From contig JAHBZB010000002.1 in NCBI GenBank assembly GCA_019635635.1, forward strand, positions 62,001 to 126,000: a DNA stretch of 64,000 nt, given 5' to 3'. Positions 32,289-36,249 of this stretch are shown piece after piece (positions within the stretch are counted from its first letter, which is position 1; each line of letters opens with the position of its first letter). Below the pieces are notes generated by a model that ran no database searches, was not told the DNA's origin, and worked only from the letters and a program-made list of their open reading frames with translations. The stretch comes from Xanthobacteraceae bacterium. Lineage in GTDB: Bacteria > Pseudomonadota > Alphaproteobacteria > Rhizobiales > Xanthobacteraceae. A program made the position numbers and the translations under genes.

Positions 32289-32347
32289 CTCCCTAGTGCA
32301 GTATTACGCCAGTGTTTCCCCGGCTTGGCCGTGATATTAGCCAATTC

Positions 32348-34015
32348 ATGGTTGCGCGCGAAATCCCGGATAGCGCGGTTTCACACCCCGCCAGCCGTTT
32401 CCGGCAGGCGGCGGTCGCGCTCGCCTTTCTCGGGGCCTATGCCGGGCTCGAATGGCTGAGCTTCATCCACGAATATAAAGGTGTGCCGATCACGCCCTGG
32501 AACCCGGGGCTTGGCCTGCTGTTCGCGCTGATGATCCTCGGCGGGCCGGTCTATGCGCTGGTGCTGTTTGCGGGCGTAGTCATCTCCGAAACGCTGGTGC
32601 TGAAGACCAACCTGCAATGGGCGATCATTCTTGGCATCGCGGCGATCATCGCGGCGGTTTACGGCGCGGCGGCATGGCTTGCGCGGGTCCGCTTCGCGCT
32701 CGATGTCAGCTTGCGGAAACTCCGCGACGTCGGCGTGCTGCTTGGCGCAGGCCTGGCGGGGGCGCTGTTCACCACACTGCTCCTTTCGCTCCTTCTGGTA
32801 TTGGAGCCGAATTTAAGCTGGGGCGACGTCGTCATTGCGCTCGTGCCGCTCCTCGTTGGCGACACGATCGGGATTGCCGTCGTCACCCCGCTCGTCATGC
32901 GCGCGATGCATCCGCACCGGCTGCCGATGCTATCCGCACCGCTCATTACCGAAATCATTCTTTACGCGGCGCTGATCGCAGGTTCACTCTGGATCATCGG
33001 CGCCGCCGGTGCCATGAACGGTGTGAAGCTCTTTTATCTTCTGTTCGTGCCGGTCGTGCTTTCGGCGCTGCGTTTCGGCCTAGATGGCGCCTGCGTCGCG
33101 CTCGCGCTCGCGCAACTCGGTCTCGTGATCGTGCTCCGTTTCTTTGCGGCCGACGCGCAAACCTTCACGGAGTTCCAGATTCTGATGCTGGTGCTGACCG
33201 CGACCGGGCTGATCGTGGGCGCGGTTGTAACCGAACGGGAACGCTCCGAAGAACATGCGCGCGATGCCGAGCGCCGCTTCAAGGAAAAGGAAGCGGAAGC
33301 GGTGCATGCCGCGCGCTTCACGCTGGTCAGCGGCATGGCTTCGGCGCTCGCGCACGAAATCAATCAGCCGATGACGGCGGCGCGCTCGCTCGCTCGTTCC
33401 GCGCAGGAGCTGATCCGTAAGCCGGAAGCCGATCTCGCCCGCGCCGATACAAATCTCACGAACATGATCACGCAGGTCGATCTCGCCGGTGCGATCGTCC
33501 GGCGCATGCGGGAATTTCTCCGGCGCGGGCATCCGCGCGTCAGCACGGTCGATGCTGCGAACGTGCTCGACGATGCCTTGATGCTCGCCCGCTCCGAAGC
33601 GGCGGCAAAAGATATCCGGCTTGTGCTGAAATGCGAGAACGGCCTTCCGCCGCTTTATGGCGACCGGGTGCAGTTGCAGCAGGTGGTCCTTAACCTGGTT
33701 CGCAACAGCATAGACTCCATCGCAAGCGCGAAACGCGGCGGCGAAGTCGTCATCGCTGCGCGGCATCTTTTCACACCCGGCCGCGTCGAATTTAGCGTAT
33801 GGGATAACGGACCCGGTATCAGCGAGGATATCGCGGAGCGGCTGTTCGAGCCTCTGATGACTTCAAAGCATGAAGGTCTCGGTCTCGGGCTTCCGATCTG
33901 CACCTCCATCGTCGAGGCGCATGGCGGCAAGATATGGCTCCATTCGCGCGAGCCGGGGACTACCGAATTTCGCTTCACCATACCGACCGGGGATAAACGG
34001 AACGACCAAAGATGA
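32348..34015 (+). CDS. MASE1-domain sensor histidine kinase
   Basis: A 555-residue sensor kinase. About eight membrane helices in the first 290 residues form a MASE1-type sensor (TPWNPGLGLLFALM is characteristic), followed by a short coiled linker and a HisKA/HATPase core. H336 lies in ALAHEINQPMTAARS, the N box is NLVRNSIDSI, and the G boxes are DNGPGI and GLGLGLPIC. No PAS domain separates sensor and kinase. The start is uncertain: an in-frame GTG at 32312 would add 12 residues. The stop overlaps the regulator start as ATGA, so the two are a cognate pair. Confidence 0.85.
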   Translation: MVAREIPDSAVSHPASRFRQAAVALAFLGAYAGLEWLSFIHEYKGVPITPWNPGLGLLFALMILGGPVYALVLFAGVVISETLVLKTNLQWAIILGIAAIIAAVYGAAAWLARVRFALDVSLRKLRDVGVLLGAGLAGALFTTLLLSLLLVLEPNLSWGDVVIALVPLLVGDTIGIAVVTPLVMRAMHPHRLPMLSAPLITEIILYAALIAGSLWIIGAAGAMNGVKLFYLLFVPVVLSALRFGLDGACVALALAQLGLVIVLRFFAADAQTFTEFQILMLVLTATGLIVGAVVTERERSEEHARDAERRFKEKEAEAVHAARFTLVSGMASALAHEINQPMTAARSLARSAQELIRKPEADLARADTNLTNMITQVDLAGAIVRRMREFLRRGHPRVSTVDAANVLDDALMLARSEAAAKDIRLVLKCENGLPPLYGDRVQLQQVVLNLVRNSIDSIASAKRGGEVVIAARHLFTPGRVEFSVWDNGPGISEDIAERLFEPLMTSKHEGLGLGLPICTSIVEAHGGKIWLHSREPGTTEFRFTIPTGDKRNDQR

Positions 34016-34626
34016 CGGGACCGACGATCTACATTGTCGACGATCAGGAATCGGTGCGGAACGCGCTCGGCGAGATGCTGAGCGTCTTCGGCTTCCAGAC
34101 CGAGGGCTTCGAGTCCGCGGACCGCTTCCTCGAAAAGCTCGATTCTTCCCGCCCTGCCTGCATCGTCGCGGATGTGCGGATGCCCGGAACGGACGGCATC
34201 GAACTCGTCCGGCAGCTAGGAAAACGCGGCAGTTCGCTGCCCGTCGTGCTGATTTCGGGCCATGCCGACATTCCGATGGCGGTCGCCGCGATCAAGGCAG
34301 GCGCCGAGGAATTCATTGAGAAGCCGGTCGATGACACCCAGCTTGTTGCCGCCATCAATCGTGGCCTCGCACGGCTTCACGATAACCTCGGCGCTTCGCG
34401 CTCCGGCGAGGAACTGCGCGAGCGTTTCGCGCGGCTGACCCCGCGGCAGACCGAGATTTTCGATCTGGTCGCCGAGGGCTTCACCAGCCAGAACGTCGCC
34501 GACAAGCTCGGGATCAGCGTCCGCACGGTCGAGAGTTATCGCGCTGAAATCATGGAAAAGATGCAGGCGCAGAGCGTCGCCGTGCTGGTGCGACAGGCCG
34601 TGAAGCTCGGCCGGGTTATTCCGTAG
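34012..34626 (+). CDS. FixJ/NarL-family response regulator
   Basis: A 204-residue regulator with an N-terminal receiver (phospho-acceptor D54 in VADVRMPG, K104 in EKPVDD) and a C-terminal LuxR-type helix-turn-helix (LTPRQTEIFDLVAEGFTS to ISVRTVESYRAEIMEKM). FixJ is the closest named relative, but the sensor lacks the FixL heme-PAS domain, so nitrogen fixation control should not be assumed. It is translationally coupled to the kinase through ATGA. Confidence 0.88.
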   Translation: MTGPTIYIVDDQESVRNALGEMLSVFGFQTEGFESADRFLEKLDSSRPACIVADVRMPGTDGIELVRQLGKRGSSLPVVLISGHADIPMAVAAIKAGAEEFIEKPVDDTQLVAAINRGLARLHDNLGASRSGEELRERFARLTPRQTEIFDLVAEGFTSQNVADKLGISVRTVESYRAEIMEKMQAQSVAVLVRQAVKLGRVIP

Positions 34627-34717
34627 AACTACGGGCGGAATGCTACGAATATTCACCTCGCAGCCGTGTGACTAGTTTCGATTCCTGACGCCGCGCGCTT
34701 CGCGCGGCCCCGTAGTT
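34627..34717 (+). other. Nested inverted repeats after the response regulator
   Basis: AACTACGGG at 34627-34635 pairs perfectly with CCCGTAGTT at 34709-34717. Inside lies an eight-pair GC hairpin, GCCGCGCG (34690-34697) with CGCGCGGC (34701-34708) and a three-base loop. There is no U-run, so it is either a Rho-assisted terminator of the kinase-regulator operon or a structured leader of the next gene, whose SD (CAGGAG) begins three bases after the outer arm. Confidence 0.5.
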
Positions 34718-34731
34718 ATCAGGAGCGGAGC

Positions 34732-35076
34732 ATGGCGCTCTCAGGCTACAAGCCTGAACGGCGACAGACCTTTTCAGCAGAACTGCGCGATCCGCGGACG
34801 CGCCTGAAAGTTCTTTTCATAGTCGGCGCGATTCCCGCGGCCGCGGTTGCCTTGTTCGCGCCGTCTACAATCTCGCTGCCGCTCGCCAGCCTCGTATCGC
34901 TCCTTCTGGCAGGCGTTTTCGGCTTGTATGCCTGGCACCGGCGCACGGATCATCGCGCACAGGGCCTCACCTTTCGCGACCTCGCGGGAATGCTCGCGCT
35001 GATCGGCTTCAGCGCGGGTTCGATGTCCGAACCCACCGCCGCCCTCGAATTATTCGGGATGGCCGCAACGAGATAA
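34732..35076 (+). CDS. Small membrane protein, unknown function
   Basis: A 114-residue protein with a basic, polar N-terminus of about 27 residues, two hydrophobic segments at about 28-45 (LFIVGAIPAAAVALFAP) and 50-68 (LASLVSLLLAGVFGLYAW), and a C-terminal hydrophobic stretch (LAGMLALIGFSAGSM). The start has AGGAGCGGAGC directly upstream. I do not recognise a family. It lies between the two-component pair and terC, behind a structured leader of its own. Confidence 0.6.
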   Translation: MALSGYKPERRQTFSAELRDPRTRLKVLFIVGAIPAAAVALFAPSTISLPLASLVSLLLAGVFGLYAWHRRTDHRAQGLTFRDLAGMLALIGFSAGSMSEPTAALELFGMAATR

Positions 35077-35156
35077 CCGACATCATCAACCGAGACCGGG
35101 CCCCTCTGGCAGTTCCTCACGGACTGCGATGTCGGTCTTCACCAAGGAGAGGGTCC
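35077..35156 (+). promoter_or_regulatory. Structured RNA leader upstream of the terC leader ORF
   Basis: Two pairings exclude each other. Stem A: bases 35076-35084 with 35128-35136 (ACCGACATC with GATGTCGGT, nine perfect pairs). Stem B: 35099-35107 with 35148-35156 (GGCCCCTCT with AGAGGGTCC, eight of nine pairs). A five-pair hairpin, 35109-35113 with 35123-35127, fits inside either. Stem B covers the end of the SD (AAGGAG, 35144-35149) and the bases up to the GTG of the leader ORF, so it would reduce its translation, while stem A would leave it free. The ligand or signal is unknown; the known Mn riboswitch consensus of terC leaders was not seen. Confidence 0.45.
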
Positions 35157-35252
35157 GTGGACCTATTGTATCGAAAAACTGTTCGAACGCGTCCGGCTAT
35201 GTCAGCCGATGATGCACTTGCGCGCCTTCAGGCTCATGGGGGTGCCGCATGA
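35157..35252 (+). CDS. 31-residue leader ORF coupled to terC
   Basis: A GTG-started reading frame of 31 codons plus stop. AAGGAG (35144-35149) lies seven bases before the GTG. The peptide begins VDLLYRKTVRTRPAM, continues with SADDALARLQ and ends HGGAA. It is basic in its first half and has no hydrophobic segment. Its TGA stop (35250-35252) overlaps the terC ATG (35249-35251) as ATGA, a typical coupling junction. This is a strong architectural case but no homologue is known to me, so expression remains to be shown. Confidence 0.5.
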   Translation: MDLLYRKTVRTRPAMSADDALARLQAHGGAA

Positions 35253-35929
35253 ACACGATCATGACGATCATGCCCGCCGACGCATGGGTCGCGCTGTTTC
35301 AGGTCATCATGATCGACCTCGTGCTCGCGGCCGACAACGCCATCGTGATCGGACTTGCCGCCGCGGGATTGCCGCGCGAGCAACGCGCGCGAGCAATTCT
35401 GATCGGTATTATCGCCGCGACCGTGCTTCGCATCGGCTTCGCCGCCATGACGACGCAACTGCTGCAAGTGGTTGGGCTTCTGTTTGCCGGCGGCATTTTG
35501 CTTCTTTGGGTATGCTGGAAGATGTGGCGCGAACTGCGCACCAGCGCACATGAAGAGCACGACGCCGTCGAGGCCGTTACCGGCGAGGACATCAACAGGG
35601 ACGGCACCGTCGCCGCTTCCGCGCCGCGCAAAACTTTCGCGGCGGCCGCATGGCAGATCGTGATCGCCGACGTTTCGATGTCGCTCGACAACGTGCTCGC
35701 GGTCGCGGGCGCGGCCCGCGAACACCCTTGGGTTCTCGTATTCGGGCTTGCACTCTCGATCGCGCTGATGGGCATTGCCGCCTCGTTCATCGCCCGCATA
35801 CTCCAGAAATACCGCTGGATCGCCTATATCGGCCTTGCGGTCATCCTCTATGTGGCCTTCGAGATGATCTTCCGGGGCGGGCTCGAACTGAAACCGTTTG
35901 CGACCAGTCTCGCCGCACGGTTCTTCTGA
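35249..35929 (+). CDS. TerC-family integral membrane protein
   Basis: A 226-residue TerC/Alx-type membrane protein with about seven helices. The two family-defining acidic motifs are IDLVLAADNAIVI (D23, D29, N30) and ADVSMSLDNVLAV (D141, D147, N148), placed in symmetrical halves, with a charged cytoplasmic loop (about 93-130) between. TerC proteins are linked to manganese export, metal loading of exported proteins and tellurite resistance. The ATG overlapping the leader ORF stop is preferred over the internal ATGs at residues 5 and 8. Confidence 0.85.
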   Translation: MNTIMTIMPADAWVALFQVIMIDLVLAADNAIVIGLAAAGLPREQRARAILIGIIAATVLRIGFAAMTTQLLQVVGLLFAGGILLLWVCWKMWRELRTSAHEEHDAVEAVTGEDINRDGTVAASAPRKTFAAAAWQIVIADVSMSLDNVLAVAGAAREHPWVLVFGLALSIALMGIAASFIARILQKYRWIAYIGLAVILYVAFEMIFRGGLELKPFATSLAARFF

Positions 35930-36021: not shown

Positions 36022-36249
36022 ATGACCGAGCGTGTCGTCGATCTGCGCGGGCTGAAATGCCCGTTGCCTGTGCTGAAAGCGAAGAAGCTGATGCCGACGC
36101 TCGCAGTTGGCGAACGCCTCACGCTCAAATGCACCGACCCGATGACCATCATCGATCTTCCGAATTACGCCCGCGAAGCCGGACACCGGCTCGAACGCCA
36201 GGAGCAACGCGACGGCGTCTATATCTTCACCATAGCCAAGGTGGGCTAA
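36022..36249 (+). CDS. tusA: Sulfur carrier protein TusA family
   Basis: A 75-residue TusA/SirA protein that carries persulfide sulfur for tRNA thiolation and cofactor synthesis. The sulfur-accepting C13 is in the CPLP box (LRGLKCPLPVLKAKK). The fold is complete. The upstream open frame to 35650 is a shadow of terC. The ATG at 36022 matches the family start. The exported hydrolase follows after two bases. Confidence 0.9.
   Translation: MTERVVDLRGLKCPLPVLKAKKLMPTLAVGERLTLKCTDPMTIIDLPNYAREAGHRLERQEQRDGVYIFTIAKVG

Follow-up and report, generated by a model that had tools for sequence, protein, structure and literature searches.

What would a reading frame of only 31 codons be doing between a cis-regulatory RNA and the gene that this RNA precedes? 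The question is raised by a stretch of 64,000 nucleotides (hereafter, the window) from the 3.37 Mb genome of a Xanthobacteraceae bacterium, in which a GTG-initiated frame runs up to, and just into, a gene for a membrane protein of the TerC family. The best account we can offer, and one towards which we lean with modest confidence, is a two-step translational relay: the RNA would act on the short leader, and the leader in turn on terC.

Layout of the locus

Working through the locus from its 5′ side (all features lie on the forward strand), we see that the cis-regulatory terC RNA of Rfam (RF03067), an element absent from the preliminary description of this DNA, occupies positions 35088–35144. 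The match covers the full model (1–59) and scores 57.2 bits in cmscan against a gathering threshold of 39.9 (E = 2.7e-07 for the window). It is built from two helices, P1 (35093–35099/35132–35138) and P2 (35109–35115/35121–35127), with an internal loop, GCCCCUCUG, at 35100–35108. The last base of the RNA is also the first base of a strong and well-spaced Shine-Dalgarno (SD) sequence, AAGGAG (‘SD1’, 35144–35149), itself followed by a seven-nucleotide spacer, AGGGTCC, and by the GTG codon (35157–35159) that opens the leader ORF (35157–35252; 31 codons, start included: VDLLYRKTVRTRPAMSADDALARLQAHGGAA). The TGA of the leader (35250–35252) overlaps the ATG of the TerC frame (35249–35251) as ATGA; the SD, spacer, start, length and overlapping stop had all been described beforehand, and each proved exact when we re-read the sequence. 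Because the RNA ends on SD1, the start site that adjoins it is that of the leader and not that of terC, which begins 104 nt 3′ of the RNA.

The terC gene (35249–35929) encodes a YjbE-type TerC membrane protein of 226 amino acids (Pfam TerC, E = 7.9e-46; TIGR03717, the YjbE subfamily, 223.2 bits against a cut-off of 134.8). Its own SD (‘SD2’, 35238–35243) sits inside the last codons of the leader and is weak in the window, reading GGGGGU; four relatives have GGAGG. In type, in score and in its position upstream of a terC gene the RNA is that of the Rfam entry, the model of which stops at the SD, its structure line showing no SD pairing and no leader ORF.

On an alignment of 46 sequences (our own selection from the 74 listed), P2 is paired in 95.2% of cells, with six of its seven pairs changed on both sides (covariation), and P1 in 86.3%, with one of seven so changed; at one P1 position (columns 4/48) 41 of the 46 lack a pair that the window has. 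Surveyed at E ≤ 0.001 with stricter filters, RF03067 was found in 125 of 198 genomes of the family, 147 of 397 of the order and 52 of 385 of the class, these samples overlapping. Of the 80 loci retrieved solely through similarity of the TerC protein, 58 have the core of the RNA no more than 700 nt upstream of TerC, as located by a regular expression that misses divergent copies; two of the remaining 22 (L212 and L219) have less than 250 nt of upstream sequence.

The arrangement had earlier been likened to the leaders of alx and mntP. The yybP-ykoY manganese riboswitches of alx, mntP and ykoY are RNA leaders that regulate TerC-family or manganese-export genes, and to this extent, an RNA leader on a TerC-family gene, the likeness holds; the RNA here belongs to a different family, however, with no match to yybP-ykoY at the gathering threshold in the window, where only RF03067 and two tRNAs reach it. 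A scan of 34600–35300 for a sigma-70 promoter or an intrinsic terminator found none, and among the matches listed in the literature that we searched, the original motif description apart, we found no ligand or mechanism for the terC RNA. TerC proteins are tied to manganese export and to the metalation of secreted enzymes in the available text of PMC10550928, which also mentions a manganese riboswitch of meeY/ykoY; given this link, a metal-related input to the terC RNA is plausible.

A candidate pairing between the RNA loop and SD1

The internal loop contains CCCUCU (35102–35107), which we propose as an anti-SD strand. Its candidate partner, at 35148–35153, falls within a segment (‘segment 2’, AGAGGGUCC, 35148–35156) that overlaps SD1 and is complementary to the loop. 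Elsewhere too, an SD-carrying segment found mostly 12–16 nt after the RNA core complements the loop, often as GGAGUGGCCC and in this genus as AGAGGGUCC. Averaged across 87 clusters (drawn from 105 distinct loci, of which L131 and L138 are only 32–33% identical to the TerC of the window), the best score reaches 16.8. The 300 permuted probes average 12.2 (sd 1.05), not one of them equalling the real loop, and shuffled sequence gives 10.5 (sd 0.39); in the two 31-nt stretches that follow, the score is 8.2 and 10.1. On the 46-sequence alignment 81.4% of cells pair, compared with 34–61% when the register is slid. Because the loop reads the same in all 46, no covariation is seen for the pairing among them.

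In the unconstrained centroid fold of the window the loop does pair with SD1, although the register is slightly displaced and P1 gives way, and the same pairing is the minimum-energy structure when 35088–35170 is folded alone; it is missing from the minimum-energy fold of the window, in which SD1 pairs with UCUUC. As a property of all terC RNAs the pairing does not stand, since no excess is seen in 82 clusters from outside the YjbE set (12.00 against 12.14, sd 0.58). A looser regular expression, applied to all copies, brought many chance matches into its 208 clusters, and there four of 300 permutations reached the observed mean. The invariance of the loop must therefore have another cause as well, and our hypothesis of a loop–SD1 pairing is confined to the YjbE class. 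For alphaproteobacteria with a YjbE-type copy this would suggest a concrete expression platform, in which the loop pairs with the SD segment just downstream.

At two YjbE-type loci with long spacers (L094 and L092), the segment GGAGUGGCCC also complements, by eye, a stretch immediately before the terC SD (GGCCACUCCCC in L094, a weaker complement in L092) that can in turn pair with that SD; where the leader frame is absent or marginal, as at these loci, a four-segment switch is possible.

Conservation of the leader frame within the genus

Eight genomes of the genus were searched; six have a close terC orthologue together with the terC RNA, and the other two (72% and 86% complete) have neither. 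The 19-base block of SD and start, GGAGAGGGTCCGTGGACCT, recurs without mismatch in five of the 391 family genomes searched, all five belonging to the genus, and at SD1 AGGAGAGGGTCC is identical in the five. Their leaders are of 31, 31, 25, 25 and 24 codons, lengths that differ by 3, 18 or 21 nt, and every frame terminates precisely at the start of terC, in ATGA or GTGA; the AUGA/NUGA overlap of uORF and gene known from ppe2 (see Discussion) is present in the window and its four congeners alike. Frameshifts and stops, which the preliminary description had proposed seeking in close relatives, occur in none of the five leader-bearing genomes; in the sixth congener, L009, which has diverged furthest (TerC 77%), the leader is missing altogether and the terC RNA directly adjoins terC.

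The third positions of terC (66 codons) differ by 32–55% in all pairs of the five leader genomes, and by 38% between the window and L005. In our judgement the leader frame is very probably a real and conserved feature of the clade; that only these five genomes, which share ancestry, have it counts against the relay. Seven further matches to the block, with one or two mismatches (L259, L260 and L266–L270), were considered as distant leaders and set aside, there being no RNA core in the 80 nt upstream of them. The closest named relative in the collection is L179, a Xanthobacteraceae metagenome assembly with a TerC identity of 96%.

The stop–start overlap and the expectation from chance

A frame of this size could also be an incidental spacer, a product of chance or a relic, with the terC RNA acting on SD2 alone by RNA–RNA rearrangement. 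To be weighed here are 110 loci with both RNA and terC, from which two were left out for their low TerC identity and 17 as redundant, so that 91 remain; the terC start at each was picked by a score of SD, start codon and distance that is blind to the leader. At 18 of the 91 there is no start codon by the segment, at 11 the start found there is that of terC itself and one locus is too short, leaving 61 eligible; 39 of the eligible frames stop before terC, 12 overlap it by exactly 4 nt, five stop at −2 to +12 and five run further. Thus, at 57 of the 91 loci (the 18 and the 39) no frame from the segment reaches terC; this favours a spacer, as do the hairpins that several of the 57 show, by eye, at the terC SD, the long spacers of many other YjbE-type loci and the weak amino-acid constraint on the leader described below.

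The chance of an overlap at any one locus, at about 0.10–0.14 (composition and frame shuffles), points the same way; a single case is therefore weak, and it is the repeated case that carries weight. The ATGA/GTGA overlap is found at 12 of the 61 eligible loci, where shuffles of composition and frame would lead one to expect 3.75 (P about 5e-5 in a simulation that treats loci as independent). It is present at all four of the non-redundant loci of the genus and, outside the genus, at 8 of 57 against 3.3 expected (P about 0.013). As an internal control outside the genus, start codons further downstream give the overlap at 3 of 54 and 5 of 58 loci (the latter set lying 45–75 nt after the segment), and a stop within −2 to +12 at 4 of 54 and 14 of 58, the figure for the segment itself being 13 of 57; with so modest an excess, and with these controls, the signal outside the genus is only suggestive. 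Within the genus, the retention of frame and overlap at four of four non-redundant loci, the invariance of the 19-base block in five genomes and the strength and spacing of SD1 all argue against an incidental spacer, which we consider rather unlikely.

Elsewhere the segment appears to be a translation start site in its own right, as terC’s own start lies beside it and is served by it directly at those 11 of the 91 non-redundant loci (L009, L145, L142, L134, L103, L224 and L128 among them). Four loci (L038, L058, L060 and L100) have a frame of 117–119 amino acids between RNA and terC, with an 8-nt overlap with the latter, whilst a coupled short frame is found in this genus and in some others (for example L136, with 40 codons). 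Two frames that run from the segment past the terC start, in L122 and in L248 (Rhodoplanes tepidamans), resemble each other in their SFG, RRGE, KPGAP and SSRR stretches and are possibly a second kind of leader.

Predicted masking of the terC SD

At the 3′ end of the leader, folding predicts a hairpin (35219–35249) that covers SD2 and the A of the terC ATG. All five leader genomes have an SD in the last leader codons (GGAGG in four, GGGGG in the window) and inside a predicted hairpin, with a mean unpaired probability of 0.20–0.28 in five of five; by comparison, the average is 0.52 over those 23 genes of the window whose SD could be recognised (out of about 51 long ORFs), two of the 23 lying at or below 0.28. 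The hairpins are partly different in sequence (local z −0.41, −1.92, −2.10, −0.99 and −2.54), and the leader, taken whole, folds no more stably than shuffled versions of it (z −0.66). At the eight overlap loci outside the genus, the SD is 0.19–0.33 unpaired in L094, L136, L187 and L202, and not masked in L047, L178, L199 and L222 (0.40–0.78 unpaired). That the leader is placed to set the translation of terC, as first suggested from the junction, is thus borne out by the frame and stop–start overlap in five of five leader-bearing genomes and by an SD2 that lies inside the leader end and is predicted to be masked there.

Leader translation might instead serve mainly to keep Rho from terminating the transcript. 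Coupled leaders in general could work in this way, and the idea has been raised for ppe2; in the available text on that system, Rho is concluded not to account for the effect (PMC11260477), and at the present locus the predicted masking of the terC SD argues for SD opening, so that we think a main role for Rho improbable.

Divergence of the leader peptide

The preliminary description had also suggested that the peptide itself might be the sensor, its Arg/Lys-rich nascent chain stalling the ribosome. The window and L005 do share YRKTVRTR, their first 45 leader bases (35157–35201) being identical, synonymous sites included, and L006 has the related YRKRCLFKR; L007, however, lacks any such stretch and has YNRDYLSDSASLVA. 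In general the leader peptides open with VDL and close with GG(A/E)A, with little shared between. Three synonymous and five non-synonymous changes separate the leaders of the window and L005 (pS 0.12, pN 0.07), and five and ten those of L006 and L008 (pS 0.27, pN 0.18), so that pN/pS is about 0.6 in the first pair (8 changes) and 0.67 in the second (15 changes); for terC, compared between the window and L005, it is about 0.05 (pS 0.42, pN 0.02). The stretch is therefore not conserved, and sensing by a stalled peptide appears highly improbable; with the peptide diverging in this way, the act of translation probably matters more than its product. The 45 identical bases, set against terC third positions that differ by some 38–40%, suggest either constraint at the level of the RNA or local exchange or recombination.

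Another conceivable origin of the leader is as the remnant of a first gene once longer, like the 117–119 amino acid frame noted above; a relative of that gene lies upstream of the terC RNA at this very locus. This relative, a small membrane-protein-like ORF of 114 amino acids (34732–35076), ends 11 nt before the RNA, gives no Pfam family over the cut-off and resembles the frames of L038, L058, L060, L100 and L121 (phmmer). Searching with the L060 frame (E ≤ 0.01) retrieves relatives in 35 of 80 family genomes (loci L030 and L271–L300); 18 are within about 110 nt upstream of the terC RNA (coordinates read off) and three, in G021, G040 and G075, lie between RNA and terC. It is possible that this protein of about 115 amino acids is a partner of YjbE-type TerC.

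Discussion

In the relay that we favour, which is drawn from sequence and predicted folds, the terC RNA would control initiation at the adjacent SD1, its loop CCCUCU pairing with an AGAGGG that overlaps SD1. When SD1 is free, ribosomes would translate the 31-codon leader from the GTG at 35157, melt the hairpin that hides SD2, stop at the leader UGA and reinitiate at the overlapping AUG of terC; translation of the leader, its coupling to terC, which way the switch works and an input signal that is a metal or something related are all parts that we infer. The peptide would probably be disposable, with the frame, its length modulo three and its end point being what counts. L009, which manages without a leader, is a point against the relay and, at the same time, a ready comparison for the leader-bearing loci. 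Counting against the relay, too, are the weak SD2 of the window, the unmasked SD at four overlap loci outside the genus, the modest overlap excess there, the unremarkable stability of the whole leader and a loop–SD1 pairing that shows no covariation and is missing from the minimum-energy fold of the window.

The closest precedent is the ppe2 B12 riboswitch of Mycobacterium tuberculosis, which, as described in the available text of PMC11260477, needs its uORF and the AUGA overlap and works mainly by termination–reinitiation; RNA elements that act through a coupled leader are thus already known, and the present locus would add a probable natural case. Common to both are a cis-regulatory RNA and a short uORF, translated in the case of ppe2, with a stop/start AUGA. 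The two differ in RNA class and in gene, and PPE2 is reported there to have no SD, whereas terC has SD2 in the leader end; the relay of the window, moreover, is a prediction. According to the accessible part of PMC8092293, the mgtQ uORF of Salmonella, a short ORF in the mgtC–mgtB intergenic region, promotes translation of mgtB; it resembles our leader in preceding a metal transporter gene and in being overlapped by stem-loops, and differs in acting through ribosome-destabilising acidic residues, the leader here having no conserved codon identity.

More tentatively, and as a conjecture that we would place a little short of an even chance, the orphan terC RNA before YjbE-type terC genes may be a translational switch with its invariant loop as anti-SD, into the switched start of which lineages have plugged first frames of different kinds. 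In some this would be terC itself and in others the frame of a small membrane partner; in the present genus it would be a dispensable leader, which would relay the signal by the passage of ribosomes. A reporter fusion at the terC start alone would be unsuitable in the genus, because the start beside the RNA is there that of the short leader.

Elsewhere in the window, on the upstream side of the terC cluster, the ORF at 32312–34626 has on inspection the look of a sensor histidine kinase, and the gene after it encodes a FixJ-like response regulator (NF006900 at 208.3 bits, short of the cut-off of 255); downstream of terC lies a TusA-type sulfurtransferase (36022–36249; Pfam TusA).
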